Positions 1,468 to 26,048 of a stretch of DNA of 64,000 bases are shown here, piece after piece. This DNA comes from a virus. The stretch is from positions 1-64,000 of IMG/VR virus record IMGVR_UViG_3300037068_000153. One strand, given 5' to 3'. The position numbers were made by a program, and so were the translations under genes. The notes beneath the pieces are model-generated. The model did not search any database. It worked only from the letters and a program-made list of their open reading frames with translations, and had not been told where the DNA came from. Each line of letters opens with the position of its first letter. Positions within the stretch are counted from its first letter, which is position 1.

Positions 1468-2148
1468 ATGTCGAAGTCTATAGACGTGATCGCCGATCAG
1501 CTATGCGTCAAGCTCCAGGCGCTGGCTGAGCCCGCACGCGTGGCTGCTCTGAACCGCGTGCGCGAGAAGCTGCACGCCGTGAGCCCCTTCGCCGCCGAGC
1601 CGGTCGACTGCGTCTTGTGGGTCGAGCAGGATCTCGTCACGGCCAACGACTACAACCCCAACGCCGTCGCGCCGCCGGAGATGCGGCTGCTCGAGCTCTC
1701 TATCTCCGCCGACGGCTACACGCAGCCCATTGTGGCGGATCTCGACGATGAGAAGGCCGCCTTCGTGGTCGTCGATGGCTTCCACCGCCACCGCGTGGGC
1801 AAGGAGTCGGCGCTCGTCCGTGAGCGCGTCAAGGGCTACCTGCCGGTGGTGCAGATCAGAGACGAGCAGAAGGGCCGCCCGGACCGCATCGCCTCGACCA
1901 TCCGCCACAACCGAGCGCGCGGGAAGCATCAGGTCGAGCAGATGTCCAAGATCGTGGTCGAGCTCAAGAAGCGCAACTGGAGCGACGAGAAGATTGGCCG
2001 CGACCTCGGCATGGACCCCGATGAGGTGCTGCGTCTGGCGCAGATCACCGGATTGCGCGAGGCTTTCAAAGATCGCTCGTTCTCCATGGCCTGGGAGACG
2101 GACATGACCGTGGACGACGAGGCGGTAGAGGAGTCCATAAAGGACTAA
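1468..2148 (+). CDS. ibrB: IbrB-like ParB/sulfiredoxin-fold protein
   Basis: 226 aa. The ParB N-domain signature is clear: DYNPNAVAPPEM (residues 61-72), a GYTQPIVA strand and VVDGFHRHRVG (101-111), then STIRHNRARGKH (143-154) and a ParB-like helix-turn-helix segment (residues 160-198). These match phage IbrB proteins, which normally pair with the PAPS-reductase-fold protein IbrA; an IbrA-like gene lies at 3803. IbrA/IbrB were named as regulators of immunoglobulin-binding proteins in E. coli, but their biochemical role is not settled. The start has AAGGGAG just upstream. The usual ibrB-ibrA adjacency is broken here by three genes and a promoter. Confidence 0.85.
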   Translation: MSKSIDVIADQLCVKLQALAEPARVAALNRVREKLHAVSPFAAEPVDCVLWVEQDLVTANDYNPNAVAPPEMRLLELSISADGYTQPIVADLDDEKAAFVVVDGFHRHRVGKESALVRERVKGYLPVVQIRDEQKGRPDRIASTIRHNRARGKHQVEQMSKIVVELKKRNWSDEKIGRDLGMDPDEVLRLAQITGLREAFKDRSFSMAWETDMTVDDEAVEESIKD

Positions 2149-2186
2149 AGATTTTAGTTGACAAAATGCTAATAATTAAATATTAG
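2147..2186 (+). promoter_or_regulatory. early promoter P1 (leaderless)
   Basis: AAAGATTTTAG directly precedes TTGACA (2158-2163). A 17-bp spacer follows, then TATTAG (2181-2186). The ATG of the next gene begins seven bases after the -10, where transcription should start, so the mRNA is predicted to be leaderless. It is the best-matching member of the repeated promoter family in this window. Confidence 0.85.
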
Positions 2187-2193
2187 TCTAAAT

Positions 2194-2445
2194 ATGAGCG
2201 CAAACGTAGATAGTACTCAGTGGACTGAGTGGCAGGGTAAGTGGGAGCGCCTGGAAGATGGCACTTTTGGTGCTTCTATCAGGTTCAAAAATCACGAAAA
2301 TTTGATTGATAGATGCGTCGGTAAAATCGTTACACTCACTAGCAAAGCCGGTAAAAGAGAACGCGTAGTTCTTATTGAGCTAATTAAAGATTATGGAATT
2401 AACGATGTTACGATTTTTCGTTGTGAACGACTGATGGGTCATTAG
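2194..2445 (+). CDS. AT-rich 83-aa hypothetical protein
   Basis: 83 aa, notably lower in GC than its neighbours, with its own promoter ending seven bases upstream and no Shine-Dalgarno. The product (WQGKWERLEDGTFGASIRF...) looks like a small beta-rich soluble domain. No family recognised. Composition and a private promoter suggest recent acquisition as a moron-like gene. Confidence 0.75.
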   Translation: MSANVDSTQWTEWQGKWERLEDGTFGASIRFKNHENLIDRCVGKIVTLTSKAGKRERVVLIELIKDYGINDVTIFRCERLMGH

Positions 2446-2450
2446 CCCAT

Positions 2451-2864
2451 ATGGGTAACTGGGAGCGGGACCTCATCGGCCCGGGCCGCGCGCCCGAGCG
2501 TGGGCGCTATTACGCCGACTACCGCGAGCTGGAGGAATACGCCGCCGGCATGTGGCGACGCGCGTCGGGCGAGGCGCACCAGCTGAACCTCATCGCGCTG
2601 GCCGTGCGCCTGCTGCGCGACCCCGATCGCTTCCGCGGAGCGCTCGCCCGCGTGCTGCGTGAGTGGCCGACCAGCTGCAAGGCGGAGCTTACCCGCCGGG
2701 GAAACCATTATGCGTGGTTCGGCGCGGCCTCATGCTGCATCACGCACGGCATTCCCGAGCATCTGACCCGTCGTGCTTGGTGGAAGCTAGACGACGCCGA
2801 GCGGCTGGCGGCGGACGAGTGCGCGGCGGAGGCCGAAGCGTGCTGGCGGGCGGCGCATGCCTAG
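2451..2864 (+). CDS. hypothetical protein with YYxDYxELEEY motif
   Basis: 137 aa, GC-rich. The N-terminus carries GRYYADYRELEEYAAGMWRR, closely echoed by the segment encoded at 2872-2930 (VYYRYDELEEYHDGMWRR). It is mostly helical, with Cys residues around CCITHGIPEH. No known family. The repeat of the motif in the next reading frame suggests a tandem duplication. Confidence 0.7.
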   Translation: MGNWERDLIGPGRAPERGRYYADYRELEEYAAGMWRRASGEAHQLNLIALAVRLLRDPDRFRGALARVLREWPTSCKAELTRRGNHYAWFGAASCCITHGIPEHLTRRAWWKLDDAERLAADECAAEAEACWRAAHA

Positions 2865-2958
2865 GCTGCCGCGCGTCTACTATCGTTACGACGAGCTAGA
2901 GGAGTATCACGACGGCATGTGGCGACGCGTCTCGGATACCGAGAAAAGGAGAACGCAA
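2857..2958 (+). pseudogene. truncated paralogue of the 2451-2864 gene
   Basis: The frame opening at ATG 2857 (overlapping the previous TAG) encodes about 25 residues very similar to the start of the preceding protein. It then runs without a stop into the AT-rich gene at 2959. Base composition changes sharply at about 2940. It reads as a duplicated gene start cut off by insertion of the AT-rich gene. A functional N-terminal fusion cannot be excluded. Confidence 0.5.
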
Positions 2959-3801
2959 ATGGCCACGAGACCTGAGTATCTGAAGCATATTGTCGTGGAT
3001 ATTCGTTTTGTCACTCCAGAAATGGCGAAGGAGTGGCTGGCGAATACGAAGAGAAACAACCGTTCTTTGAGAAAAGGTGTTGTAGAGAAATACGTATACG
3101 ACATCAAGAACAATGCTTGGACAGTCAATTCCAGCGCTATCGGCTTCGACACCGACGGCAATTTGACGAATGGTCAACACAGACTGAATGCCATCGTGAA
3201 GGCCGATCGAGGCATTTACACGCTTTGTATTTTCGGACTACCTATCCGTTCCATGGATACTGAGGACGTTGGAGCTTCCCGCGGAGTGAATGGGGCGTTG
3301 CAGATCCGCGGCGTCGAAAACGCGAATGCTAAAAAGGCGATCGTGCAAGTTATCGCCAATCACGTTTTCAAGACGACTGTCGTCTTATCGGTGAGTCAAT
3401 ACGATAATTTCAATCTTCGTTTTCCTGGAGCGATAGATTGGGTTTGGGACGCGTTCAAAGGCGCCAAGGTCCAAATTCGCGCCGGCGTTAGGGCTGCCTT
3501 CCTATATGCCTGGATAAGCGGAGAGCACCGAGAATTGATCGAAAGCATTGTTTCCGACCTTAAAAACTCTTTTGCCGGCACATTCGCTCTCGCTGGAGGC
3601 TCTACTGAGGTTGCTCTTCGTTCCTACATTTTGGATGGCTCGCTAAGGGACGACGGAGATGTGATCTTCAGGAAAGTAACGCGTGCGATTCACTCTATTT
3701 TCGTTGGAGGTAAACCGCTGACTAAATTACAAGAATCGAAAGAGGGAATCGAATATTTCGAGAAGATTCTCGAAGCGTACGAAAAAGCAGGGAAGTTTTA
3801 A
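2959..3801 (+). CDS. NGQHR ParB/Srx-like phage protein
   Basis: 280 aa from ATG 2959, chosen because AAAGGAG lies 9 bases upstream; the frame also extends back to 2857. Residues about 13-90 match a widespread phage family: a VTPEMAKEWL start, then NRSLRKGVVEKYVYDI, then DTDGNLTNGQHRLNAIVKA, a variant of the DGQHR motif of ParB/sulfiredoxin-fold proteins (N replaces D). The C-terminal two-thirds is helical and unassigned. The gene is AT-rich relative to its neighbours and sits directly before ibrA with one base between. It may be a nucleotide-binding partner of the Ibr pair, which is inference. Confidence 0.75.
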   Translation: MATRPEYLKHIVVDIRFVTPEMAKEWLANTKRNNRSLRKGVVEKYVYDIKNNAWTVNSSAIGFDTDGNLTNGQHRLNAIVKADRGIYTLCIFGLPIRSMDTEDVGASRGVNGALQIRGVENANAKKAIVQVIANHVFKTTVVLSVSQYDNFNLRFPGAIDWVWDAFKGAKVQIRAGVRAAFLYAWISGEHRELIESIVSDLKNSFAGTFALAGGSTEVALRSYILDGSLRDDGDVIFRKVTRAIHSIFVGGKPLTKLQESKEGIEYFEKILEAYEKAGKF

Positions 3802-3802
3802 G

Positions 3803-5074
3803 GTGCTTAAGAGGTACCTGGACATCGATGTGCTCGAAGCTGCGCGCCAGCGCATCGCGCGGACATTCGACGATTTCCCGCGCGTCTATCTGAGCTTCTC
3901 CGCCGGCAAGGACTCGACCGTCATGCTGCACCTCGTCGCTGATGAGGCGCGCCGGCGCGGCCGTAAGTTCGGGCTGCTGCTCATCGACTTGGAGGCGCAG
4001 TTCCAGGTGACGATGGACCACGGTGAGGCGCTCTTCCGTGAGTACGCCGACTGCACCGAACCGTTCTGGGTCTCATTGCCCATCCATTTGCGCAACGCCG
4101 TGTCAGTCTACGAGCCCTTCTGGACGTGCTGGGACCCCGAAGCGCGTGACGCCTGGGTGCGCCAGCCGCCGGACTTCGCCGTCGTCGACGAGAAACACTT
4201 CCCGTTCTTCTGGCGGGCGATGGAGTTCGAGGAGTTCGTCCCCCTCTTCGGCGAATGGTACGGGTGCGGGGAACGGTGCGCGTGCTTCGTGGGCATCCGC
4301 ACAGATGAGTCGCTCAATCGGTTCCGCACCATCGCGCTCTCAGACAAAGAGACGTGGCGCGGGCTGCGCTGGACGTCACGTGTCGGTGAGCAGCAGCTCT
4401 ACAACGCCTACCCCATCTATGACTGGCACGTCGACGACCTGTGGACCTACCACGCCAAGAACCCAGAACGGCAGCACAACCGCCTGTACGACCTCATGCA
4501 CCAGGCCGGGCTCACGCCGCACCAGATGCGCATCTGCCAGCCCTATGGCGACGACCAACGGCGCAACCTGTGGCTCTACCACGTCGTCGAGCCGCAGACC
4601 TGGGCCCGCGTCGTGGCGCGGGTCAACGGGGCCAACGGTGGCGCCACGTACATCCAGGAGTGGGGCAACATCAACGGCTACCGCCGGGTGACCAAGCCCC
4701 CGGGGCACACCTGGCGCAGCTTCGCTGAGCTCCTCGTTGCCAGCATGCCGCCCAAGTCGCGAGAGCATTATCGGAATAAGGTGCTGCTGTTCGAGAAATG
4801 GTGGACCGAGCGCGGCTACCCAGGCGGCATCCCGGACGAGGCCGACTACGACATGGAGGCGCAGCGCAAGGCGCCGTCGTGGCGGCGCGTATGCAAGACG
4901 CTCCTACGTAACGACTACTGGGGCAAGGGCCTCGGTTTCTCACAGCAGAAGTCCGAGGGCTACGAGGCATACCTGAAGCTCATGCGCCGGCGCAAGGCGG
5001 AGTGGAAGGTGGAGCAGGAGGCGCTCGGGTTCAAGGTCAACAGTGCGGTCGAAGCCGCGGAGGAGAACGCATGA
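3803..5074 (+). CDS. ibrA: IbrA-like PAPS reductase/ATP-PPase family protein
   Basis: 423 aa from GTG 3803. The PP-loop SFSAGKDSTVMLHLV (residues 31-45) marks the adenine nucleotide alpha-hydrolase/PAPS reductase fold. CGERCACFVGIRTDES (155-170) matches the conserved centre of IbrA/DUF3440 proteins, and the C-terminal about 200 residues form the DUF3440-like region (YNAYPIYDWHVDDLW). It probably activates a substrate with ATP. Whether it acts on sulfur, nucleic acid or protein is unknown. Partner: the IbrB-like product of 1468-2148. Confidence 0.85.
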   Translation: MLKRYLDIDVLEAARQRIARTFDDFPRVYLSFSAGKDSTVMLHLVADEARRRGRKFGLLLIDLEAQFQVTMDHGEALFREYADCTEPFWVSLPIHLRNAVSVYEPFWTCWDPEARDAWVRQPPDFAVVDEKHFPFFWRAMEFEEFVPLFGEWYGCGERCACFVGIRTDESLNRFRTIALSDKETWRGLRWTSRVGEQQLYNAYPIYDWHVDDLWTYHAKNPERQHNRLYDLMHQAGLTPHQMRICQPYGDDQRRNLWLYHVVEPQTWARVVARVNGANGGATYIQEWGNINGYRRVTKPPGHTWRSFAELLVASMPPKSREHYRNKVLLFEKWWTERGYPGGIPDEADYDMEAQRKAPSWRRVCKTLLRNDYWGKGLGFSQQKSEGYEAYLKLMRRRKAEWKVEQEALGFKVNSAVEAAEENA

Positions 5075-5214
5075 GGCTGCAAGAGCTCGAGGATAAGCTG
5101 CGCTCCATCTACGAGTCGATGCCCCACAACGCCGACGACGCCGACGAGGTCGTGGACCTTCTGCGTGAGGTCGAGTCCCAGCGCGTCCGCGAGGGCGACC
5201 GAGAGATCTGGTAG
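5071..5214 (+). CDS. 47-aa acidic helical protein
   Basis: 47 aa from ATG at an ATGA overlap with ibrA. Highly charged and helical (LQELEDKLRSIYESMPHN, then DDADEVVDLLREVE). Too short for family assignment. Translational coupling to ibrA is likely from the overlap. Confidence 0.6.
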   Translation: MRLQELEDKLRSIYESMPHNADDADEVVDLLREVESQRVREGDREIW

Positions 5215-5217
5215 CCC

Positions 5218-5442
5218 TTGATCGATCTGGAGACCGCGATCGCGCGCGCCGACAAGAGCGCATACTACCGCCGGCGCACGGCCCTCAAGCGGCGCGTGAA
5301 GATCAAGCAGGGTCTCTGCATCGACTGCAATGCGGTCGCCAAGGCGGGCGTGCGCTGCAGCGCGTGCGCGTGGAAGCACCGGCTGGCCCAGCGCCTGCGG
5401 AAGAAGCGCAAGTTCGAGCACCTGGAAAGGGACGAAGAATGA
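5218..5442 (+). CDS. small basic zinc-ribbon protein
   Basis: 74 aa from TTG 5218, three bases after the previous stop. CIDCNAVAKAGVRCSAC (residues about 35-51) gives a C-x2-C...C-x2-C zinc ribbon flanked by strongly basic helices (RRRTALKRRVKIK; RLRKKRKFEH). Nucleic-acid binding is likely by composition. The TTG start is inferred because the basic N-terminal helix is coding and no ATG lies nearer. Confidence 0.65.
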   Translation: MIDLETAIARADKSAYYRRRTALKRRVKIKQGLCIDCNAVAKAGVRCSACAWKHRLAQRLRKKRKFEHLERDEE

Positions 5443-5678
5443 AGATCGACGACAAGAGCACGAGCCGCGAGATCCTCTCCAAGCTCATGCCCGTGCATGA
5501 CGAGCTGAACCATTCCATGGTCTCGTTCGACGACGGGCACGGCATCTTCAGGGTGCTGTGTAGCTGCGACCACGATCAGATTTTCCTCGATCGCGAGGTC
5601 GAGAAACTCACGGGCCACGCCCCGTCGTGGGTGGTCGGGCGTCTGCGCGTGCTCTGCCGCGAGCGGAGGGCCGCGTGA
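5439..5678 (+). CDS. hypothetical protein, 79 aa
   Basis: 79 aa from an ATGA overlap. Helical N-terminus (REILSKLMPVHDELNHSM), then FRVLCSCDHDQI with paired Cys and a basic C-terminus. No family recognised. Confidence 0.6.
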   Translation: MKIDDKSTSREILSKLMPVHDELNHSMVSFDDGHGIFRVLCSCDHDQIFLDREVEKLTGHAPSWVVGRLRVLCRERRAA

Positions 5679-6154
5679 AGCGCGTGCAGGTCGAGTCGCC
5701 ATTCGCGCCGCAGACTCCACTTCCTGATGGCGAGTGTCCAACGGTCGGAACTAGGAACGCATGGCCGTGTTCGGATTATCGATGCGGTTACTGCAATGTT
5801 CGTCGCATACGAGAGAAAGAGGCTTCCCGCAACGCGCGCTACCTCGCTGCCTGCCTGCGCGACTGTCTCCTGCGCGGCGAGTCGCCGTACGCGTCGCATG
5901 GTCTGTTGACTCTCCCCGGTGTACTTCGTGACGACGTGCCCGAGGAGCGCGAGCTGGGCATCCGCGCCGGGTTCGCCATGCGCGAGGGAATGCACGCGAC
6001 TGTGTTCTACACCGACCTCGGCTGGTCGCGTGGGATGCGCGCGGGTGAGGATCACGCGATCGAGTTGATCCGATACTCGAACGTCAAGGTCACGGGCTCG
6101 TCACCTGGCCACATCATCGAGTATCGAGAGCTTGGTCCTGATTGGGACAAATAA
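5675..6154 (+). CDS. DUF7768/nucleoside-deoxyribosyltransferase-like protein
   Basis: 159 aa from GTG at a GTGA overlap. The core from residue about 45 (ARYLAACLRDCLLRGE, ASHGLLTLPGVLRDD, EERELGIRAGFAM) matches phage and plasmid proteins with a nucleoside 2-deoxyribosyltransferase-like fold (DUF7768/DUF4406 type). The first about 40 residues differ from the usual short start and are Cys-rich (C-x12-C-x4-C-x2-C), perhaps an added zinc site. A role in nucleotide or base metabolism is inferred from the fold only. Confidence 0.6.
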   Translation: MKRVQVESPFAPQTPLPDGECPTVGTRNAWPCSDYRCGYCNVRRIREKEASRNARYLAACLRDCLLRGESPYASHGLLTLPGVLRDDVPEERELGIRAGFAMREGMHATVFYTDLGWSRGMRAGEDHAIELIRYSNVKVTGSSPGHIIEYRELGPDWDK

Positions 6155-6193
6155 AAGATTTTAGTTGACGCGCACCCGCTCGGGGCGCAAGGT
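6153..6193 (+). promoter_or_regulatory. early promoter P2
   Basis: AAAGATTTTAG followed by TTGACG (6165-6170), 17 bp, then CAAGGT (6188-6193). The GTG of the nuclease gene is at 6203, so the leader is at most a few bases. It belongs to the same family as the elements at 2147, 12647, 21115 and 25766. Confidence 0.75.
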
Positions 6194-6202
6194 GGGGGAC
6201 GC

Positions 6203-8359
6203 GTGCCGAACGAATCGATCATAGCGCGGCTCGACGCCGCGGGCATCCTCGTGCGCGACGAGCATGCCGAGCGCCGGTTGAAGGTGCTCAACTCGACGAG
6301 CGCGAGCCAGATCGAGCGCTGGAGCCAGTGCCCACGCCAGTGGTTCGGCGGCTACATCATGGGCGACTGGGCGCCGCAGAGCGAGGCACAGGCGCGCGGC
6401 ACGGCGATCGACCTCGAGGTGCAGAAGCACTACCGCGGCGAGCCGGTCAACAAGGGCTGGCAGGAAGCGGTCGATGGCATCGTCAAGCTCCTGCCCGCGG
6501 GCGTGGTCATCCAGCAGAAGATCGTCATGCCCACCTACGACGGCGGGCCGATGCTGGTCGGGTATCCCGATTTCCTGTACGAGGCGGCGCCGGGGGACGT
6601 GTTCGTGGACGACCTCAAAAGCACGTCGGACTTCCGCTACGCAAAGAAGCCCGAGCAGCTGCGCACGCACATCCAGCCCGTCACGTACTCGGCGTGGCTG
6701 TGGACGCTGCCCGAGGTGCGCCGCGTGCGCGCTCGCCACGTGACGGCGAAGTTCCAGAAGGACGACAAGCACCCCGTCGGGTACCGGTTCCGAGGCGCGC
6801 GGCTGACCGAGGCGGCGGAGATGGAGCGCGAGCGCATCCAGGCCGAGTGGCTGGGGCTGCACGACGGTGTGCGGGCGATGGTGGCGACGGCCAGAACGGT
6901 CGCCAATTTCGATGATTTGCCGGCGCTTGGGGCTGTCGACGTCGACGAGTTTGGGAAAACCGGGTGCGAGCGATTCGGCGGGTGCCATTTCCGCGCGCGC
7001 TGCGGGCTGGACGTTTTAGGAGGGAGAAAAAAGATGAGCGGGAGCAGCTTGACGGAGAGGCTGGAGGCGATGCGTGCCGCGCAGGCGGCAAATGGGGCGG
7101 GGACCCCGACGGCGACTACGCTGCCGATTCCCCAGATGGAGCAGCCGCCGAGCGCGCCTGGATACGTCGCGACGCAGCCGACGATGGTGATCCCAGGGGC
7201 CTTGACCGGCTCGGGGTACACGGTCGAGCGGGTCAACCCCAACAACCTGCATCCGGCCGAAGTGCTGCCCGCCGACGCGGGCTACAAGCGTGGGCAGCCA
7301 TGCAACGGCAACGGCCACTACGCGAGCTCGAACGGGCAGGGCTTCATCCCCGTCGAAGCGGGCCACGCATGCACGGTGTGCCAGCCCGGCCGCGTGCTGC
7401 CGCCGGACGCGCCGCCGCGCACGTCGACGAGCGCGGAATCGGACGCGGCCGAGGAGAGGGCGAAGAAGCGCGGGCGGCCGAAGAAGGAGCCCGAGGTGTT
7501 CAAGATCGGATGCTCGACCTGCGGCGAGAAGCTGCCCGCGTCGGAATTCGAGGCTCATATCAAGTCGCACACGACGCCGGCCCCTGCGGTGGCGACGCCG
7601 CAGGAAACGGACGCCGACCACGGCTACCGCGTGCTGCAGGAGAAGGGCTTCACCCTCGACGAGATCAACCTTCTCAACAGCGAGGGCCTGATGACCGAGG
7701 CGCTGGAGGGCAAGGTCACGACCGGCATGCTGCGCCAGCCACCGCTGCGTGCGGGGGCGGTGCCTGCGCCGGCAGCTCCGATCGCGACGGCGACCGCCCA
7801 GGAGCAATGGTACAAGAACAGCGGGCCGCCGCCGGCCACGGAGCAGACGCCACCGCCCACGACGGTAACCAACGTGTTCGTCTCGAGCGCGGACCACGTC
7901 ATGCAGGCCCCTGTGTCCAACAACGGCGGCCCTATTTTTATCGACCACAACCATGCACGCGTCGAGTCCAACGCGCGCGTGCAGGAGCACCTGAAGGCGC
8001 TGCGCAAGGCGCCGCCGAAGGTCCCACCGGCCGCGCCGACGATCTATGTTGACTGCCACCCGGTCAAGGGGCCACACCGGACCGCCGCGGTCGACGCCGC
8101 CGACTGGCTCGGGCCCATTGCCGAGCTGGCCGCGCTCGCCCACGTCGACCGCGACAGCGGCAAACCCATGCCGCTCGACGACGTCTTCTTGGCGCCCTTT
8201 GGGACGGGGCGTGCCGTGCTGGCGGCGGCGTTGCGCGAGACGCTCGACTCGTGCCCGGCCGTGCTGGCGATCGACTCGACCAGTCCGGGGCAGCAGGTCG
8301 CGCTCGAGGTCCTGCGCCCGCACGCGGCGGTCATTGTCGAGCCGAAGAGGGGGCGATGA
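6203..8359 (+). CDS. Cas4/RecB-like PD-(D/E)XK nuclease fused to zinc-finger/AT-hook region
   Basis: 718 aa from GTG 6203. Residues 30-275 are a Cas4/RecB-type nuclease: SASQIERWSQCPRQW at the start, catalytic Asp in GYPDF (D123) and DDLKS (D137, K139), and four Cys (43, 255, 261, 267) placed to ligate an Fe-S cluster. A Pro/Ala-rich linker follows, with an AT-hook-like KKRGRPKK (421-428) and a C-x2-C-x11-H-x3-H finger (437-456). The C-terminal about 110 residues form an unassigned domain ending near VEPKRGR. A strong SD and ATG lie inside the frame at 7034, so this may be two fused or separately initiated genes. Likely role: end resection or recombination during replication. Confidence 0.8.
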   Translation: MPNESIIARLDAAGILVRDEHAERRLKVLNSTSASQIERWSQCPRQWFGGYIMGDWAPQSEAQARGTAIDLEVQKHYRGEPVNKGWQEAVDGIVKLLPAGVVIQQKIVMPTYDGGPMLVGYPDFLYEAAPGDVFVDDLKSTSDFRYAKKPEQLRTHIQPVTYSAWLWTLPEVRRVRARHVTAKFQKDDKHPVGYRFRGARLTEAAEMERERIQAEWLGLHDGVRAMVATARTVANFDDLPALGAVDVDEFGKTGCERFGGCHFRARCGLDVLGGRKKMSGSSLTERLEAMRAAQAANGAGTPTATTLPIPQMEQPPSAPGYVATQPTMVIPGALTGSGYTVERVNPNNLHPAEVLPADAGYKRGQPCNGNGHYASSNGQGFIPVEAGHACTVCQPGRVLPPDAPPRTSTSAESDAAEERAKKRGRPKKEPEVFKIGCSTCGEKLPASEFEAHIKSHTTPAPAVATPQETDADHGYRVLQEKGFTLDEINLLNSEGLMTEALEGKVTTGMLRQPPLRAGAVPAPAAPIATATAQEQWYKNSGPPPATEQTPPPTTVTNVFVSSADHVMQAPVSNNGGPIFIDHNHARVESNARVQEHLKALRKAPPKVPPAAPTIYVDCHPVKGPHRTAAVDAADWLGPIAELAALAHVDRDSGKPMPLDDVFLAPFGTGRAVLAAALRETLDSCPAVLAIDSTSPGQQVALEVLRPHAAVIVEPKRGR
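7034..8359 (+). CDS. internal in-frame start: separate zinc-finger/AT-hook protein
   Basis: TAGGAGGGAG at 7017-7026 stands 7 bases before ATG 7034, in frame with the upstream nuclease. The residues between the nuclease and this ATG (LGGRKK) are simply the translated SD. A 441-aa product would carry the AT-hook, the Cys/His finger and the C-terminal domain without the nuclease. One T fewer in TTTT at 7013-7016 would place a TAG at the end of the nuclease, so relatives may have two genes. Independent expression is likely from the SD quality. Confidence 0.6.
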   Translation: MSGSSLTERLEAMRAAQAANGAGTPTATTLPIPQMEQPPSAPGYVATQPTMVIPGALTGSGYTVERVNPNNLHPAEVLPADAGYKRGQPCNGNGHYASSNGQGFIPVEAGHACTVCQPGRVLPPDAPPRTSTSAESDAAEERAKKRGRPKKEPEVFKIGCSTCGEKLPASEFEAHIKSHTTPAPAVATPQETDADHGYRVLQEKGFTLDEINLLNSEGLMTEALEGKVTTGMLRQPPLRAGAVPAPAAPIATATAQEQWYKNSGPPPATEQTPPPTTVTNVFVSSADHVMQAPVSNNGGPIFIDHNHARVESNARVQEHLKALRKAPPKVPPAAPTIYVDCHPVKGPHRTAAVDAADWLGPIAELAALAHVDRDSGKPMPLDDVFLAPFGTGRAVLAAALRETLDSCPAVLAIDSTSPGQQVALEVLRPHAAVIVEPKRGR

Positions 8360-8379
8360 AGATACGGGGTGCGTGGTGA
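8356..8379 (+). other. 7-codon ORF between overlapping genes
   Basis: ATG 8356 overlaps the nuclease stop (ATGA), encodes M-K-I-R-G-A-W, and its TGA overlaps GTG 8376 of the next gene (GTGA). It may only hand ribosomes on by termination-reinitiation. Coding value is unproven. Confidence 0.35.
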
Positions 8380-8564
8380 GTTGCCGTCACGACCTCGCGA
8401 ACACGACGTGCTCGCGCTGTTACCCGGATAGCGGCGGACTTGACTCGAACGGTCTGCCGCAAATCGATCCCGGACCGGGTCCGCACGATCCGAACCTCGA
8501 CGGTCCGGGTGCTATTGCGCTGGAGGAAAACCGTGAAGCGCCCGGTCCTGCGCGTCGCGGTTGA
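8376..8564 (+). CDS. 62-aa Cys-pair, Gly/Pro/Asp-rich protein
   Basis: 62 aa from GTG. CRHDLANTTCSRC near the start is zinc-binding-like. The rest is a Gly/Pro/Asp-rich tail (IDPGPGPHDPNLDGPG). The last 32 bases overlap the next gene in another frame. No family recognised. Confidence 0.5.
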   Translation: MSCRHDLANTTCSRCYPDSGGLDSNGLPQIDPGPGPHDPNLDGPGAIALEENREAPGPARRG

Positions 8565-8694
8565 GGGCCCGCCGGGCGCGCGGGATCGCGTGCTTCAGTC
8601 GCTGCGGGAGATGGGCTACGAGGTCAAGCAAGTCTCGGCGCTGCCGGGCCGACGACTGTCGGCAACGGTGCTGGCGCCACACGGGGAGGTCTGA
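8533..8694 (+). CDS. 53-aa alpha/beta hypothetical protein
   Basis: 53 aa from GTG 8533, chosen because GGAGG lies 6 bases upstream (8522-8526). The pattern is strand-helix-strand (VLRVAVEG, RDRVLQSLREMGYEV, RLSATVLA), a small ferredoxin-like fragment. No family recognised. Confidence 0.6.
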   Translation: MKRPVLRVAVEGPPGARDRVLQSLREMGYEVKQVSALPGRRLSATVLAPHGEV

Positions 8695-8696
8695 CA

Positions 8697-9047
8697 ATGG
8701 ACGAGATCGATATCGAGGGCATCAACCAAGGCGAGCTGCTCGCGGCGCTCTACAACAATGCCAAGCCGGTCGGCCTGGGATGGCTGCACGTGGATGCGGC
8801 GACCATGACCGCGGAGGAGGCGTGGGAGATCATCAATAGTGGAGGCGAATCAGCGCACCTGCGCGCGTCGGGATTCGTCGTGCTCGATGGCGGCGCCGAT
8901 TGGCGAGTCGATTACGTCAAAGGGCGACCGATCAAGGTCTCGGTCAAGGACAACACGTTGCGCAAGGCGTGGCTGTATGACCGAGACCACGGCGAGGGCG
9001 CATGCGCGCGAGTCGTCGCGGAGCTTCGCGCCAAGGCGCAGCGATGA
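8697..9047 (+). CDS. hypothetical protein, 116 aa
   Basis: 116 aa starting two bases after the previous stop. Acidic N-terminus (MDEIDIEGINQGELLAALYNN) with a mixed alpha/beta pattern; FVVLDGGADWRVDYVKGRPIKV is beta-rich. It resembles widespread short phage proteins of unknown role. It overlaps the DHH gene by ATGA. Confidence 0.65.
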   Translation: MDEIDIEGINQGELLAALYNNAKPVGLGWLHVDAATMTAEEAWEIINSGGESAHLRASGFVVLDGGADWRVDYVKGRPIKVSVKDNTLRKAWLYDRDHGEGACARVVAELRAKAQR

Positions 9048-14630: not shown

Positions 14631-14632
14631 CA

Positions 14633-17378: not shown

Positions 17379-17653
17379 GCCCGCGAAGCGCTATCTACTG
17401 CGAGCACGCCAACGAGGTTCCATATAGCTGCTCGTGTGATGCTGAATGCTACTGCAAAGAACATACGTGCAAACGCAGTCCCCTTGTCGCGCGCATGATG
17501 CAAACGGCGGCCGAGTTCGACTATCACCAAGCCTACGGCTGCACAGAATACGTAACGTGGAAAATTCAGTTTGCGATGATCTGGGCGGTCATCGCGTCGA
17601 TGATGCCAAAGCCCCGGGAGCCTTCACGCTGGACCATGCTGGAGATCGAATGA
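17375..17653 (+). CDS. Cys-rich small protein
   Basis: 92 aa from an ATGA overlap with polA. Eight Cys in the first 35 residues (YCEHANEVPYSCSCDAECYC and after) suggest one or two zinc sites; a hydrophobic helix (IQFAMIWAVIASMM) follows. No family recognised. Confidence 0.6.
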   Translation: MSPRSAIYCEHANEVPYSCSCDAECYCKEHTCKRSPLVARMMQTAAEFDYHQAYGCTEYVTWKIQFAMIWAVIASMMPKPREPSRWTMLEIE

Positions 17654-18231: not shown

Positions 18232-18422
18232 GCGTGGAGCAACTGTTTGTCGTCGCCGTCGAGGGCGTCGGCATCGTGCGGCACATGTGCTTCAACGTAG
18301 GGTCAGCGATCAAGTACATGTGGCGAGCGGGATTGAAGCCCGGCGAGGCATCGGTGAAAGACTTGAAAAAGGCGATTTGGTACATCAACGACGAGATCGC
18401 CAGGCTCGAGAAGAAGCTCTAG
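18198..18422 (+). CDS. DUF3310 protein
   Basis: 74 aa from ATG 18198. MCFNVGSAIKYMWRAGLK and VKDLKKAIWYINDEI match DUF3310, a small helical phage domain usually found near nucleotide metabolism or kinase genes. The first 25 residues vary. It ends tail-to-tail with the minus-strand regulator, with stops overlapping by four bases. Confidence 0.78.
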   Translation: MGEERVEIAVLSVEQLFVVAVEGVGIVRHMCFNVGSAIKYMWRAGLKPGEASVKDLKKAIWYINDEIARLEKKL

Positions 18423-18940
18423 TCCTTCCGCGCCCCCGCCCGCATCGCGAAGTCCACGTTCGGCCAGCTCTCCACCGGCACGTCCCCGCCCAGCCGCTTC
18501 GCCCAGGCCGCGATCTTGACCGCCATCGGCAGGTTCACCTCGCGCTCGCCCGTGGCCAGCATGTGCAGATACTGGCGCGAGCGGCCGAGCTCCGATGCGG
18601 CGCGGCCGAAGCTGATGCCTTGGTCGTCGAGCATGCGGCCGAACACGGTGCGCCGCTGCGGCTTGGGCCGCGGGCGCATGCGGCGGACGCGGCCCAGCTT
18701 GTCGATCTCGTCGCCAAGTGCCTCCCACTGCTCGATGGGGTACGATAGCCCGCGCGTCCGAGCCCAGACCGCGATGCGCGCCGCCATGCGCAGGCTGACG
18801 CTTTCGCGGTCGTGCATGATCTGCCCGAAGTAGCCCAGTGAGCAGCCGATCTCCTCCGCCGCCTCGTTGGGCACGACGCCGTTGCCAACGACGAATTGAC
18901 CGAACTTGGTGAGCTTCCTGGCTTTATCAGATCGAGGCAT
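18419..18940 (-). CDS. tandem helix-turn-helix regulator
   Basis: 173 aa. Two similar HTH units are visible: residues 10-60 (TKFGQFVVGNGVVPNEAAEEIGCSLGYFGQIMHDRESVSL in parts) and residues 95-150 (RTVFGRMLDDQGISFGRAASE, SRQYLHMLATGEREVNLPMA). Each has the XRE-like pattern followed by a MAxxIAxWA helix. Tandem HTHs in one chain could bind a direct repeat as a monomer. It is driven by its own minus-strand TTGACA promoter and is the best candidate for a lysis/lysogeny or early/late switch protein. Confidence 0.75.
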   Translation of the reverse strand: MPRSDKARKLTKFGQFVVGNGVVPNEAAEEIGCSLGYFGQIMHDRESVSLRMAARIAVWARTRGLSYPIEQWEALGDEIDKLGRVRRMRPRPKPQRRTVFGRMLDDQGISFGRAASELGRSRQYLHMLATGEREVNLPMAVKIAAWAKRLGGDVPVESWPNVDFAMRAGARKD

Positions 18941-18948
18941 CGACGCTA

Positions 18949-18988
18949 AAGCTCGCGCGCGGAAGCGTTTTTGTCAACAGAATTCTAG
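18949..18988 (-). promoter_or_regulatory. minus-strand early-type promoter
   Basis: Read on the minus strand: TAGAATTCTG then TTGACA (18977-18972), 17-19 bp, then GAGCTT/GCTTTA, with ATG 18940 six to eight bases after. The upstream box resembles that of the plus-strand promoter at 21115. The mRNA would be nearly leaderless. Confidence 0.65.
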
Positions 18989-18992
18989 CGGG

Positions 18993-19406
18993 CTACGGGG
19001 CGCTTTCGACGGCGCGCGCCCGTCGCGATTCGAACGCGGCGGGCCAGTGGGCGTGATTGACGAGGCAGTTGGCGAGGTGCGTGAGCAGGAACAGGAGCAC
19101 GTAGAACGCGTACTTGCCCGCCTTCTCGACGGCGCTCTTGGTGGTGGCGCGGGGCACCTGGAGCTCGACGCCGGCGGGCAGCCGAAACTTGTCGGTCTGC
19201 TCGGGCGTGTCGCGCCGACGCTTGGCGCCGCCCCCGAGAACGACCACCATGGCGCCCTCGACGCCGTCGAGCCGCGCGTTGATTTGCCGGGTGAAGGTAT
19301 TCAAGCCGATAGCGAGGTCAGCAACAGCCCTAGCGGTGAGCTTCTGACGGTCGGCGATCGTCGACTGGAGCCGTAGAATCTTCTCGTCGGTCGTCTCGTC
19401 GGCCAT
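18993..19406 (-). CDS. membrane protein of the lysis block (possible holin)
   Basis: 137 aa. A helical N-terminus (ILRLQSTIADRQKLTARAV), a basic Gly-rich middle (GGGAKRRRD) and one transmembrane segment (YAFYVLLFLLTHLANCLV, about residues 104-121). GGAGG lies upstream of ATG 19406. It is the last gene of the lysis block; a type III-like holin or spanin partner is possible from position, not from a motif. Confidence 0.55.
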   Translation of the reverse strand: MADETTDEKILRLQSTIADRQKLTARAVADLAIGLNTFTRQINARLDGVEGAMVVVLGGGAKRRRDTPEQTDKFRLPAGVELQVPRATTKSAVEKAGKYAFYVLLFLLTHLANCLVNHAHWPAAFESRRARAVESAP

Positions 19407-19485
19407 GGGGCCCGTCCTCCACCGCGGTTTTAAACTCTCCTACCGCGCGGACCATCATAGCAAATTCCTCGTTCGTATCGCCCAT
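19330..19485 (-). CDS. 51-aa hydrophilic protein overlapping the next gene
   Basis: 51 aa from ATG 19485 with GAGGAGG upstream. The N-terminal helix (DTNEEFAMMVRAVGEFKTAV) is followed by a strongly charged tail. It overlaps the 18993-19406 gene by 77 bases in another frame, an arrangement typical of overlapping lysis genes. Coding is supported mainly by the SD. Confidence 0.5.
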   Translation of the reverse strand: MGDTNEEFAMMVRAVGEFKTAVEDGPHGRRDDRREDSTAPVDDRRPSEAHR

Positions 19486-19552
19486 GTCCGCCTCCTCTTG
19501 TGGCGCGTTTCGCTCGCGCTCTAGATGCGACAATACGCCGCGCGTTATCACA

Positions 19553-20098
19553 CTAGTACCCATGACACGCCTGGATGTGCATGCGATCGCTCCGCGTTTT
19601 GAAATCGGCGCCGCAGACGAGACCAAGCTGACGCGCGTCGTCGAGCCACGCCTCGGGCAGATCGTTTAGGGGGCCGACAGCGCGCCGCGGGTCGCCGAGC
19701 GGGCAGGGCGCCACCAGCCGATTAGTGTTTTCGTTGGCGTCTATAGCGATGCCCCAGCTGTGGGTCGAGTACAGCTGCGAGCCCGGGGGCGCGCCGCGCT
19801 GCAGCCGCGGGGAGAAGCACGCCAGCTTGACTAGCCGGTAGGGGTCGCCGGAGCGCACGCGCGCGGACCAGGCGTCGAGCAGCCGGCCGAGCAGCGGGGC
19901 GAACATACGGTGGCAGTAGATGGCCTGGCGCGCGTTGGGGATGAAACCGTGCTCGAGCGTCGCCATGTTGCGTCGCTCCCAGGCCCCGTCGACCTCATAG
20001 TCGCGGCCGACGAGGTGTACCTTCGGGTCGCCGTAGACTTCGACGATCTGCTCGAGCCCGTCGGGCACCTGCGCCGGGATGACGTCGGCCGAGCCCAC
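19553..20098 (-). CDS. M15-family peptidase endolysin
   Basis: 181 aa from GTG 20098, overlapping the previous TAG (TAGTG). The zinc peptidase signature is STHSWGIAIDANEN (His and Asp ligands) with a final SDRMHIQ (His ligand), as in M15C L-alanyl-D-glutamate or VanY-like peptidases. It would cleave the peptide stem of host peptidoglycan at lysis. No signal peptide, so a holin is needed, and membrane proteins flank it. Confidence 0.82.
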   Translation of the reverse strand: MGSADVIPAQVPDGLEQIVEVYGDPKVHLVGRDYEVDGAWERRNMATLEHGFIPNARQAIYCHRMFAPLLGRLLDAWSARVRSGDPYRLVKLACFSPRLQRGAPPGSQLYSTHSWGIAIDANENTNRLVAPCPLGDPRRAVGPLNDLPEAWLDDARQLGLVCGADFKTRSDRMHIQACHGY

Positions 20099-20334
20099 TA
20101 TGCGGGCTCTTCCGTCTTGGACGCTGATGCGATCTCGGATTCGATCTCAGCGTCGCGAGCCTTTACGGCCGCCTCGGTCGTGGCGCGGTCCTGCGCGGTG
20201 GCGGCGAGTTGCGCCTGCAGCTTGACCTCGAGGTCGGCCAGCTCCTTGAGCTTCGACGCGTCGTAAAGGTCGGTCCCTTCGGTCAACGCCAGCTGCACCA
20301 GCGAGATGAGCAGGGAGAGCTCGGCCGGCGTCAC
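20098..20334 (-). CDS. coiled-coil protein of the lysis block
   Basis: 78 aa from GTG (GTGA overlap). A hydrophobic N-terminal helix (LSLLISLVQLALTEG) leads into a long Ala/Glu/Lys coiled coil (LKELADLEVKLQAQLAAT...). Size and position between membrane protein and peptidase would suit an inner spanin or accessory. No firm family. Confidence 0.6.
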   Translation of the reverse strand: MTPAELSLLISLVQLALTEGTDLYDASKLKELADLEVKLQAQLAATAQDRATTEAAVKARDAEIESEIASASKTEEPA

Positions 20335-21053
20335 TTGGACACCGCCTGGAGGTCGGCGATCAGTGCTTCGATCTGAGCCGCCATGCTCGCGAGCTGCGGC
20401 AGGTAGGCGGTGAAGTCCTTCCAGTTGCGGCTACCCTTGTCGGCCGCCTGGCGCACGGTGTCAGCGGTGGAGAGCAGATCGGCGCCGGCGGCGAGCCCGG
20501 CTAACGCCTTGTCAATCTTGGGCTTGTAGGCACTGAACTCGGTGCGCGCCTGCGCCACCTTGCCGGCCGTGATCTCGCTGTGCAGCGCATCCGTCTTGGC
20601 CTTGTCGATGCCATCGACGACGCGGTAGCCCAGCGACACCGTCTTGCCGAGCGTCATCTCAGCGAGGATCGTGTCCTTCTGCGCGCTGGCGCACCCCGCC
20701 AGGGTCAGGGCGAGCCCGAGCGCGGTCAGGAGCGCCAGCACCAGCATCACACCGGTGGTCACCATGCCCGACTGCTTGCGCGCGGCGGGGTCGGCGGGGT
20801 CGCGCACGGTCCAGGTCACGAACGGGATCGAGACGGTGAGCCCCATCCATGTCTTACCGTTGAGCGTCGCCGCGAACGAGGGCAGGTCGACGAGCACGAA
20901 GTGCCCGGCGCGCGCGTACCAGGGAGCGCTCGCCGAAGGCTTCGGCCAGCCCCGGGCGATGATGGTGGCGACGGCGATCCAGCCGCCCAGGATGGTCATG
21001 ATGGCGGCCCAGTGCGCGCCGGCCAAAGTCTGCAATTGTCCTAGCATTTGCAT
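20331..21053 (-). CDS. multi-TM protein with internal lipobox (holin/spanin-like)
   Basis: 240 aa from ATG 21053, preferred over 21101 because AGGGG precedes it. TM segments lie at residues about 13-32 and 50-62. A hydrophobic stretch ending in a perfect lipobox, ALTLAGCASA, is at about residues 98-125. A soluble helical C-terminus follows (residues 126-240). From MVTTGVML onward it looks like a complete lipoprotein, so the gene may be a fusion of a holin-like and a lipoprotein gene, or the lipoprotein may start internally. A lysis role is inferred from location. Confidence 0.6.
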   Translation of the reverse strand: MQMLGQLQTLAGAHWAAIMTILGGWIAVATIIARGWPKPSASAPWYARAGHFVLVDLPSFAATLNGKTWMGLTVSIPFVTWTVRDPADPAARKQSGMVTTGVMLVLALLTALGLALTLAGCASAQKDTILAEMTLGKTVSLGYRVVDGIDKAKTDALHSEITAGKVAQARTEFSAYKPKIDKALAGLAAGADLLSTADTVRQAADKGSRNWKDFTAYLPQLASMAAQIEALIADLQAVSK

Positions 21054-21071
21054 CACCCCTACGTTGACGAC

Positions 21072-21101
21072 AGGATAGCGTTTTTGCGCGGCATGGGTCA
21101 A
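21072..21101 (-). promoter_or_regulatory. candidate minus-strand promoter of the lysis block
   Basis: On the minus strand TTGACC (21101-21096) is followed 18 bp later by TATCCT (21077-21072), with ATG 21053 about 18 bases further and AGGGG between. It is divergent from the plus-strand promoter at 21115. Confidence 0.45.
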
Positions 21102-21114
21102 ATCGAGCCACTCG

Positions 21115-21157
21115 TTAGAAGATTTCTGTTGACAAACTAGATGGCAAGGCGCAAGCT
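21115..21157 (+). promoter_or_regulatory. early promoter P4 (leaderless)
   Basis: TAGAAGATTTCTG followed by TTGACA (21129-21134), 17 bp, then CAAGCT (21152-21157). ATG 21164 follows after exactly six bases, so no leader is expected. It heads the accessory block 21164-25765. Confidence 0.8.
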
Positions 21158-21163
21158 CTCATC

Positions 21164-21340
21164 ATGACGATGCAGCTGCGCGATTGGACGACGGGCGAGG
21201 TCATCCGCGACGCCACGGCGCTGGAGGTGCAGTGGTGGAACCGCGTGATCAAGCCCGCCAAGGTGGGTTACATGATCATCGAGGACGGCACCGACGACGG
21301 GCAATACGTGACGGTCGGCGAGGGCCCCGATGTCGTTTGA
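21164..21340 (+). CDS. 58-aa protein, first gene of accessory block
   Basis: 58 aa, start placed by promoter P4 six bases upstream. Contains TGEVIRDATALEVQWWNRVIKPAK and an acidic beta C-terminus (YMIIEDGTDDGQYVTVG is broken by turns). No family recognised. Confidence 0.6.
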   Translation: MTMQLRDWTTGEVIRDATALEVQWWNRVIKPAKVGYMIIEDGTDDGQYVTVGEGPDVV

Positions 21341-21551
21341 GGTGCCCGTCGTCCAGCCTACGATCGTCATCGAGGCCAAGCGCGCGCCGCACGGCGGCGG
21401 TCTGCCAGCTCTCGAGCCCGAGCGCGACGACTTCATCGAGCCGTTGCTGCCGCTCACGCCCGCCTGCGACAGCGACGTCTGGTGGTGGTGCGGCCCGCGC
21501 GGCGACCGGCGCGACGGTGGGTACCTGCGCAAGTCCTACGTGGTGGGATGA
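21330..21551 (+). CDS. hypothetical protein, 73 aa
   Basis: 73 aa, overlapping the previous gene by 11 bases. Pro-rich start (VPVVQPTIVIEAKRAP), acidic middle, then WWWCGPRGDRRDGGYLRKSY. No family recognised. Confidence 0.5.
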   Translation: MSFEVPVVQPTIVIEAKRAPHGGGLPALEPERDDFIEPLLPLTPACDSDVWWWCGPRGDRRDGGYLRKSYVVG

Positions 21552-21565
21552 GAGGAGAAAATTTG

Positions 21566-21835
21566 ATGAGCATCAACGACAAAAAATCCGTCTTCTTAGA
21601 AGCTAAGCGCGTCGCGCGCCGGGCGGAGCGTATCGTCGCTATCGTCCGCGGCGCTATCGTTCGCGGCACGAGTGACTTCGCCGAAGAGCAGATAGCCGCG
21701 CAGAAGTTGCGCGCCGCGGCGCATAAGTTCGCCCGCACCGACCCGGCCTCCGATGCGGGTGAGCTGAGCGAGGCCGCGCTCTACGCCGCCGCGGTGGCGT
21801 TCGTCGAGCAGTTCCAGAAGGGGATTGATCCATGA
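21566..21835 (+). CDS. helical hypothetical protein, 89 aa
   Basis: 89 aa from ATG 21566 with GAGGAG upstream. Entirely helical and Ala-rich (FLEAKRVARRAERIVAIVRG; EEQIAAQKLRAAAHKF). Soluble, of unknown role. Confidence 0.65.
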   Translation: MSINDKKSVFLEAKRVARRAERIVAIVRGAIVRGTSDFAEEQIAAQKLRAAAHKFARTDPASDAGELSEAALYAAAVAFVEQFQKGIDP

Positions 21836-22020
21836 TCACCAAAGAGCAGGCCGCGGAGCTGCGCAGACATCTGCAAGACTATCGTCAAGCCACGCGAGAG
21901 AGCGACGACTACGACCAGTGGCGGCACCCCGAACCTGTCTATCGTGAGCGTCTCAACAAACGCCTCTATGAGACGCGCCTCGCGGTCGAGAATTACATCG
22001 ACGAACTGACGGAGAAATGA
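21832..22020 (+). CDS. helical hypothetical protein, 62 aa
   Basis: 62 aa from an ATGA overlap. Charged helical protein (KEQAAELRRHLQDYRQATRE; YRERLNKRLYETRLAVENY). No family recognised. Confidence 0.6.
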   Translation: MITKEQAAELRRHLQDYRQATRESDDYDQWRHPEPVYRERLNKRLYETRLAVENYIDELTEK

Positions 22021-23814: not shown

Positions 23815-23817
23815 GAG

Positions 23818-24680: not shown

Positions 24681-24958
24681 GCCATCACTGCCACGTCCCC
24701 GGCTGCGACACGCCGTGCCCGCCACGTCTCCTCATGTGCCCTGCACACTGGCGCTTAGTTCCATTCGAGATTCAAGGCGAGGTGTACGCGACCGTCGGCA
24801 AGCGCGGGAAGTTGATCGATGCTTCGTGGGCACCATGGTGGCGCGCGCGAACGAAGGCGATTCACGCGATCATGAAGGCTGAGGGTCGCGACCCCGAACG
24901 CATTGAACGATGGTTCGAACTCGCGATGCGTACCGCTGACGCATTGGAGGCGCGATGA
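24677..24958 (+). CDS. small zinc-finger-like protein, 93 aa
   Basis: 93 aa from GTG. HHCHVPGCDTPCPPRLLMCPAHW at the N-terminus resembles phage C4/C2H2 knuckles of unknown role, followed by a helical domain (RARTKAIHAIMKAEGRDP). It overlaps its neighbours by GTGA and ATGA. Confidence 0.65.
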   Translation: MSHHCHVPGCDTPCPPRLLMCPAHWRLVPFEIQGEVYATVGKRGKLIDASWAPWWRARTKAIHAIMKAEGRDPERIERWFELAMRTADALEAR

Positions 24959-25383
24959 CCCCGCAGCGTGACGATGCCATTCGCGAAATGCAGCAGAGGC
25001 TGCGCAATGAGCAGGACGCCCACGCCCGCACGCAGGTCGAGGCGGCGGCGCTCCTGAATTGGTGCGCGGCTTGGCTCATCCGCGCGCGCCTTGCGATCTA
25101 CCGCGAGGGATGGGAAGAGGGCATGTCCTCGACTGAGGCTGCGGACGCTCTGACGTCGGTCCTCTTCAACCTGGGATGCGACAACGGCAGCGAGCGCGAA
25201 CACGACATCGCCGAAACGAAGCGGCTACTGGCGATGCCTATCACCTACGTGCCGCCCGCCGGCCGCGCCCTCGCCGAGCGCGTGAAGCTGTGGCGCCAAC
25301 TAGAGAGCGCCGTGCGTGAGCAGGACTGGCGACTGATGGATGACACGCTGTCGCGGCTCGCCGCCCTCGACGAGTCCACCTAA
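24955..25383 (+). CDS. helical hypothetical protein, 142 aa
   Basis: 142 aa from an ATGA overlap. All-helical: IREMQQRLRNEQDAHARTQVE at the start, a hydrophobic helix around residues 35-48 (LLNWCAAWLIRARLAIY), then an amphipathic C-terminus. No family recognised. Confidence 0.6.
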   Translation: MTPQRDDAIREMQQRLRNEQDAHARTQVEAAALLNWCAAWLIRARLAIYREGWEEGMSSTEAADALTSVLFNLGCDNGSEREHDIAETKRLLAMPITYVPPAGRALAERVKLWRQLESAVREQDWRLMDDTLSRLAALDEST

Positions 25384-25523
25384 TGGGCATGCTCCTCGTC
25401 GATCTCGCGCACCGCACCGTCCGCCTCGCGCTTACTACTGCGGCGCTGGTCTACGTCGTGACGGTGCCGGCGGGTGTGCAGGCGATCGTGGCGTTGGCGG
25501 TAATGAGTAGGAGGGGGCGATGA
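25383..25523 (+). CDS. 46-aa membrane protein
   Basis: 46 aa from ATG overlapping the previous TAA (TAATG). One long hydrophobic stretch (residues 14-40, LALTTAALVYVVTVPAGV...) ending in RRGR. Likely a single-pass membrane peptide. Confidence 0.5.
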   Translation: MGMLLVDLAHRTVRLALTTAALVYVVTVPAGVQAIVALAVMSRRGR

Positions 25524-25765
25524 GCATCTACAGCGTGCGCCTGCACTTGAGCGAGCGCGCGCTTGAGGACTGCGCCGCGGGCTCGTTCGTGCCGCCCGCC
25601 GACGCCTGGGCTCAGGACCTCACCGCCGCGCTCGTGGTCGCCCGGGCCGCGCCCGGCATCGCCGGCGCCACCATCTGGGAGGGCGACGTCATGGTCGCAG
25701 TGTGGACCCCGGGCGTAACCGACCGCGGTGTGGCGTACTACTTCCACGGACGGGCGCCGAGCTAG
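25520..25765 (+). CDS. hypothetical protein, 81 aa
   Basis: 81 aa from an ATGA overlap with GGAGG just upstream. Alpha/beta pattern (SIYSVRLHLSERALEDCAAG; ATIWEGDVMVAVWTPG). No family recognised. Last gene before promoter P5. Confidence 0.6.
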   Translation: MSIYSVRLHLSERALEDCAAGSFVPPADAWAQDLTAALVVARAAPGIAGATIWEGDVMVAVWTPGVTDRGVAYYFHGRAPS

Positions 25766-25805
25766 AAATATTTTAGTTGACAAAGTGAACGGCAGAGCGC
25801 ATGGT
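25766..25805 (+). promoter_or_regulatory. early promoter P5 (leaderless)
   Basis: AAATATTTTAG then TTGACA (25777-25782), 17 bp, then CATGGT (25800-25805). ATG 25812 starts after exactly six bases. Confidence 0.8.
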
Positions 25806-25811
25806 AGGGGC

Positions 25812-26048
25812 ATGAGCAAGCGAGAGCAGAACGCCCCGGTGCAGGCCATCGAGGATCACCGCGCCACCAAGCGCATCGTGGTCGACCTCACCGAGACCGA
25901 CGTGGAGCGCCTCGTGCGCGGGCTGGAGCTAATCGACCGCGGGCGCGGGCGCGACGTGCTGGAGCCGATCGAGCGCGAGATGCAGTGGCGCCTGGACGCG
26001 CGCCGCGCGGCGTTCTCGCTGGACGAAATCAAGGATCGAGGCGAATGA
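25812..26048 (+). CDS. hypothetical protein, 78 aa (possible RHH-like)
   Basis: 78 aa, start set by promoter P5. TKRIVVDLTETDVERLVRGLELI has the strand-helix look of a ribbon-helix-helix protein, followed by a charged helix. DNA binding is possible but unproven. Predicted leaderless. Confidence 0.6.
   Translation: MSKREQNAPVQAIEDHRATKRIVVDLTETDVERLVRGLELIDRGRGRDVLEPIEREMQWRLDARRAAFSLDEIKDRGE

Follow-up and report, generated by a model that had tools for sequence, protein, structure and literature searches.

The window, the 64,000 bp stretch of DNA analysed here, comprises bases 1-64,000 of the virus record G000 (77,172 bp), at 67% GC. The record represents an uncultured tailed phage, with genes for tail sheath, baseplate, portal, terminase, DNA polymerase and collagen-like tail fibres; replication genes lie in the plus strand arm, which wraps from around 76 kb to 26 kb, and the minus strand arm (76 to 26.6 kb) is composed of structural genes for the most part. 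Three related contigs were found, all from IMG sample 3300032893: G001 (73,971 bp, with a DNA polymerase 85% identical to that of G000), G002 (32,704 bp) and G003 (5,292 bp). Positions in the four sequences are prefixed g, h, k and m respectively, and the h, k and m coordinates count along the reverse-complemented public contig.

The sequence GATTTNNGTTGAY (last base Y) is present in eight copies in G000, against 0.019 expected under an order-1 Markov model. Searching the complete 77,172 bp record for GATTTNNGTTGAC likewise gave eight matches, with none for the reversed pattern, whilst AAAGATTTTAG alone, allowing up to two mismatches, matched eight times in the window against 1.5 in shuffled sequence. 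All six copies listed in that prediction are present. The plus strand positions hold, in a common register of 2147, 6154, 12648, 21118 and 25766; the minus strand copy had been placed at 18949, which is the end of its -10, its box starting at 18988. Four further copies had gone unlisted, one inside the window (g27724, plus) and three outside it (64771 plus, 70492 minus and 76112 plus). The copies in the window are arranged as follows.

2147-2445, plus strand: box 2147-2157, -35 TTGACA 2158-2163, 17 bp, -10 TATTAG 2181-2186, 7 nt, ATG 2194; leaderless class; the gene is an 83 aa orphan in an AT-rich insert, lacking a Shine-Dalgarno (SD) sequence (duplex energy +0.8).
6154-8359, plus strand: box 6154-6164, TTGACG, 17 bp, CAAGGT 6188-6193, 9 nt, GTG 6203; near-leaderless (around 3 nt); the gene encodes a 718 aa protein with a PD-(D/E)XK nuclease domain, and GGGGGACGC-GTG is identical in two relatives.
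12648-13372, plus strand: box copy with a leader of around 36 nt, SD ACAGGAGCC, ATG 12731, 213 aa protein; SD class, as is the G001 orthologue.
18419-18988, minus strand: diverged copy; box 18988-18978, TTGACA, 17 bp, GAGCTT 18954-18949, 8 nt, ATG 18940; 173 aa protein with a helix-turn-helix match, the 8 nt spacing recurring in a relative (h29755, minus).
21118-21340, plus strand: box 21118-21128, TTGACA, 17 bp, CAAGCT 21152-21157, 6 nt, ATG 21164; 58 aa protein; leaderless class.
25766-26048, plus strand: box 25766-25776, TTGACA, 17 bp, CATGGT 25800-25805, 6 nt, ATG 25812; leaderless class; 78 aa conserved protein, with homology in G001 that stops at most one or two residues short of the methionine.
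27724-27740, plus strand: solitary box with TTGACG and no conserved gene behind it; a relative has a 62 aa gene there.
27691-27703, minus strand: TAGGCT, 6 nt and ATG, head-to-head with the 27724 box and opening a 30 aa ORF only.

The 7 nt between -10 and start codon originally given for three genes is thus right at 2194 and wrong at 21164 and 25812, where it is 6 nt; at 6203, given as nine or ten, it is 9 nt and the start codon is GTG. The gap at 18940 on the minus strand is 8 nt, and 12731 has the SD-equipped leader described for it.

G001 carries nine exact copies, rising to 12 once mismatches are allowed, and none of the reversed pattern; more copies of the box are found in G002 and G003. 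Across the four sequences, 26 copies are linked to genes, with the consensus T-W-A-R-A-A-G-A-T-T-T-T-W-G-TTGAC-R-A-A-C, 13-14 variable bases and Y-A-N-N-N-T. The box, AAGATTTTTG, directly adjoins a near-invariant TTGAC: TTGA is found in all 26 copies, followed by C in 25. At the -10, A occupies position 2 in 25/26 copies and T position 6 in 24/26, with C or G replacing T as the first base in many copies; these hexamers are weak (YANNNT). The spacing between -35 and -10 is 16 or 17 bp in all copies, with 18 bp possible at 12648. Because it was the box and TTGAC, rather than the -10, that identified a copy, the -10 signature constitutes largely independent support for a sigma70-type assignment, subject to its having been picked among 15-19 bp spacings with a score that favours A at position 2 and T at position 6. 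Judged at the sequence level, with a TTGACA-like -35 and a TANNNT-like -10 lying within 16-18 bp, the repeat is a predicted sigma70-type promoter. The A/T content of 10 bp bins upstream of the box is 32-41%, with 53% only in the bin adjacent to it. The suggestion that the box is common to unrelated phages was rejected, exact matches in other viral contigs being mostly AT-rich and chance-like. Amongst viral contigs, at least 118 stretches combine the box with a 6-7 nt gap, against 62 with a 12-13 nt gap, although these counts ignore shared ancestry.

In sigma70 promoters, transcription starts around 7 nt after the -10. Fifteen of the 26 copies have a start codon 6-9 nt after the -10, giving a predicted leader of 0-3 nt, and represent eight independent loci: g2147; g6154/h16716/k26343; g18988/h29755 (both minus); g21118; g25766/h35277; h56488; h69198/k1898; and k10773/m270. 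The remaining 11 have their start 17-43 nt after the -10, and no copy has a gap of 10 to 16 nt. In 10 of these 11 the SD energy in the predicted leader lies between -6.6 and -13.8 kcal/mol, being weak only at h37743. Orthologous copies stay in the same class with one exception, g21118, which starts at the predicted +1, and h31877, which has an ATG near +1 plus a second, SD-led ATG with which its protein match is compatible. Both g64771 and h31877 were initially counted as leaderless and later assigned to the SD class, a post hoc judgement based on a second ATG, in frame and led by GGAGGG, downstream of the one at +1/+2; since this second ATG is the better start in both, the position of an ATG alone over-calls leaderless genes.

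The published mark of leaderless genes is a TANNNT that precedes the start codon by around 12 bp, counted from its first T, with no SD (Zheng et al. 2011, PMC3160421). The 15 box copies with a 6-9 nt gap display this arrangement, although many box copies have C or G in place of that T. The best supported cases are g25766/h35277, in which homology starts one or two residues at most from the methionine although the 5' flanks differ; g18988/h29755, where the gap is 8 nt in both and the N-termini are similar; and h56488, where a lipoprotein signal peptide, judged by eye, runs from the first ATG of a protein with a matrixin domain. The existence of two gap classes, and the conservation of class among orthologues, mean that initiation without a leader, or with one of 1-3 nt, has good support, if by sequence only, at about half of the copies. 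The original prediction had treated such initiation as a property of the promoter as a whole; it stands for this half, conserved between relatives, but not for the 11/26 copies whose starts lie further off, nearly all with an SD.

The same geometry is found at late genes that lack the box. In a box-independent test of 119 upstream regions, taken from 60 gene pairs with starts agreeing between G000 and G001, 12 had TANNNT 6-7 nt before the start, against a mean of 1.0 and a maximum of five in 500 dinucleotide shuffles; these 12 are not all independent, because the two genomes are related. Other single gaps were found in 0-3 regions each. In G000 alone the signature occurs in 4/60 regions against 0.5 expected, a number that one shuffle also reached, and some late TANNNT motifs overlap the stop codon of the upstream gene. 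The -10-like sequences at these genes in the window are TAGAAT, TAGACT or TAGTCT, without TTGACA, at the first five of the sites below.

33618-33630, minus strand: TAGAAT, 6 nt and ATG of a collagen-like tail fibre gene (1152 aa); box absent.
43677-43689, minus strand: TAGACT, 6 nt and ATG of a second collagen-like tail fibre gene (543 aa).
46584-46596, minus strand: TAGAAT, 6 nt and ATG of a 365 aa gene.
47687-47699, minus strand: TAGTCT, 6 nt and ATG of a 359 aa gene.
50113-50125, minus strand: TAGAAT, 6 nt and ATG of a baseplate wedge gene, identical in a relative.
58564-58576, minus strand: TAGCAT, 6 nt and GTG of a 132 aa gene; relatives have a box cassette just upstream and retain TANNNT-6-GTG.

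Recurrence of the -10-to-start geometry at late structural genes implies that leaderless starts would be used genome-wide, not in one early regulon. A candidate late motif, TGTGACACA, was unsupported, its five near matches in the window comparing with an expected 2.5.

In G001, G002 and G003, and once in G000, predicted plus strand box promoters lie between minus strand late genes. Three such cassette segments (h 69170-69528, h ~2750-3053 and g 64763-66300) are missing at the matching place in the other genome. In the opposite direction from the cassette box, TANNNT is found 6 or 7 nt before a start at eight of nine places, that start belonging to a late gene or, at g27724, to the 30 aa frame. 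The gene at g58564, which has no insert, already carries its TAGCAT-6 nt-GTG. At g67052 (minus), the uninterrupted gene has a translationally overlapped start and no -10; h2746 (minus), with the portal-proximal insert, has TAGTCT-6 nt-GTG. It is thus possible that a cassette brings with it two divergent promoters, both leaderless, with a single clear case. Only tentatively do we suggest that mobile cassettes have spread between late genes, their divergent promoters putting +1 on both start codons and so rendering insert and neighbour alike leaderless. Terminators near box genes occurred at chance level in a scan of 1901-21900.

The explanation that we consider quite probable is that a lineage-specific sigma70-type promoter has been duplicated, being leaderless at about half of its copies and followed by an SD at the rest, with the leaderless geometry also in use at late genes. 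Its elements are the box at around -46 to -36, TTGACR as the -35, 16-17 bp and a YANNNT -10. In about half, the start codon 6-8 nt after the -10 would itself be +1, so that AUG or GUG opens the mRNA, which is then translated by leaderless initiation; in the other half, +1 would precede the start by 11-37 nt, with an SD in use. The same promoters might instead have their +1 a few bases further upstream, or belong to longer operon transcripts, making the messages short-leadered or polycistronic with a weak SD or none. Several copies in the plus strand arm do directly follow the stop codon of the upstream gene, and G-rich tracts precede both 6203 and 35324 in G001 (SD energy around -8.4). The GGTGGGGG tract upstream of 6203 could pair with the anti-SD (-8.4 kcal/mol) if the transcript began 5' of the predicted +1, and the relatives of the 6203 gene likewise have GTG 9 nt after the -10 and a G-rich tract. 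However, the gaps cluster at 6-9 nt and are conserved between relatives, and in the cassettes the upstream gene is on the other strand, which excludes its read-through, yet the gap is 6 nt; we therefore regard this account as unlikely. Still less likely is the original proposal that genes with the box form a single leaderless set expressed early. Most box copies in the window do lie in the replication arm, but others are found in the packaging and structural arm (70492, minus, between the portal and terminase genes) and in cassettes amid late genes, 11/26 copies are not leaderless, and late genes without the box bear the leaderless signature.

A separate question, compatible with leaderless starts, concerns the role of the box. 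It probably strengthens recognition of the promoter, either by occupying the position of a proximal UP element or through an activator bound beside the -35. Sigma70 promoters with UP elements have an A/T-rich block upstream of the -35. The phage promoters resemble them in having such a block immediately 5' of the -35, in the position of the proximal subsite, to which it is restricted; they differ in that the distal A/T subsite is absent and the box is fixed in sequence, with a conserved G at its fourth position (24/26 copies) and a nearly invariant AGATTT. Such conservation exceeds that of a free A/T-rich UP element and argues against a free A/T tract, although descent by duplication from a single promoter explains the identity equally well. 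It could alternatively reflect coordinated control, with the box as an operator or activator site, overlapping the -35, for a phage regulator such as the helix-turn-helix protein encoded at 18419-18940, whose own box, in each of the two phages, is one of the most diverged copies. The box is not an inverted repeat, however, and keeps a constant register with TTGAC, and we hold this to be a possible but somewhat doubtful role. The duplicated promoter would probably be read by the host RNA polymerase, because none of the proteins scanned, which were part of the gene set, was recognisable as a phage RNA polymerase or sigma factor.

Clues to the host are suggestive only. A single bacterial genome matched GAAGATTTTTGTTGACNAAC, an Acidobacteriaceae MAG in which it precedes a gene that by eye resembles an insertion sequence or transposase gene, with TATTCT-6 nt-ATG; this match, and the commonness of leaderless genes in the phylum, are the reasons for suggesting an Acidobacteriota host. 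The portal protein had no match in bacterial genomes, including 396 of Acidobacteriota, an empty answer that proves little. The box pattern in Acidobacteria is not specific: 297 genomes gave 29 matches against two for the reversed pattern, and these include a promoter family of a conserved 127 aa gene.

Averaged over the genomes surveyed, the share of genes led by TANNNT is 13% in Acidobacteria, 19% in Actinobacteria and 16% in delta-Proteobacteria (PMC3160421). The phage shares with these bacterial genes the TANNNT geometry and the lack of an SD; they were described for cellular genomes, whereas the phage combines a duplicated box promoter with a further late set that lacks the box. It was in lambda that leaderless initiation first came to light (cited in PMC3160421). 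The phage candidates, which include a helix-turn-helix gene, would resemble lambda cI in having an mRNA predicted to start at AUG, but comprise at least eight independent loci as well as late genes. In lambda one leaderless gene is known, cI, whose mRNA from PRM starts at AUG. Phage morons are accessory genes with their own promoter. The cassettes are similar in being inserted between conserved late genes, with their own predicted promoter on the opposite strand, and in being present or absent among relatives; unlike morons, they all use the box promoter, are often leaderless by prediction, and have in the intergenic region a divergently oriented -10 that would serve the adjacent late gene. 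Leaderless phage genes and repeated phage promoters are already known, and what is new is the lineage-specific box, its use in two classes and the divergent cassettes. Gene callers that rely on an SD will misplace starts in such phages. Leaderless phage genes have mostly been known one at a time; one duplicated promoter that exists in a leaderless and an SD form, together with an orthologous pair that has switched between the two, would offer a natural test of the purpose that leaderless initiation serves.

Late structural genes on the minus strand, with starts at window positions 33618, 43677, 46584, 47687 and 50113, have the hexamer TAGAAT, TAGACT or TAGTCT followed by exactly 6 nt and then the ATG, and TTGACA is absent before them. 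On this sequence pattern, they represent a putative second set of leaderless-type promoters, which lack the box. Two genes in this part of the window have long collagen-like repeats that cross-match one another:

30160-33618, minus strand, tail fibre gene with long collagen-like repeats
42046-43677, minus strand, tail fibre gene with long collagen-like repeats

Box promoters are also carried by presence/absence gene cassettes lying between late genes, both in the relatives G001 (h2774, h56488 and h69198, on the reverse complement), G002 (k1898 and k10773, likewise) and G003 (L200 ~270), and in the last ~13 kb of the phage's own record, G000 (L009 ~1771). These are head-to-head with a leaderless-type -10 serving the neighbouring late gene. 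The product of one cassette gene, at 56533-57042 of the G001 reverse complement, is predicted to be a lipoprotein and contains a zinc-protease domain of the matrixin type (Peptidase_M10).

Outside the phage lineage, AGATTTTGGTTGAC, with TATAAT and ATGAAC at leaderless-type spacing, occurs in unrelated, lower-GC viral contigs (L204, L271, L292, L300 and L306), possibly another leaderless promoter family. In Acidobacteria (L321-L327, L333 and L334), TACGAAGATTTTCGTTGAC promoters precede a conserved 127-aa gene and contain what, by eye, resembles a BlaI/CopY-like operator; most are leadered, with the -10, 7 nt and ATG arrangement in two.

Both contig ends of G000 (window 1-150 and the L009 end, 77.0-77.17 kb) consist of (CCG)n repeats through which a reading frame stays open, the record probably being a circular genome broken within a repeat. 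AT-rich genes at 2150-2450 and 2857-3801 (51-57% GC in 1-kb bins, versus 67% for the genome) are predicted recent insertions; no homologue of the 83-aa gene in the 2150-2450 region was found in G001. A tRNA-Tyr gene is present, and G001 has one as well:

13513-13594, plus strand, tRNA-Tyr gene

A candidate regulator is encoded on the strand opposite to the surrounding replication arm:

18419-18940, minus strand, 173-aa protein with two apparent tandem helix-turn-helix repeats

The protein has one weak Pfam match, in its second half, and its gene has the most diverged box copy in G000.
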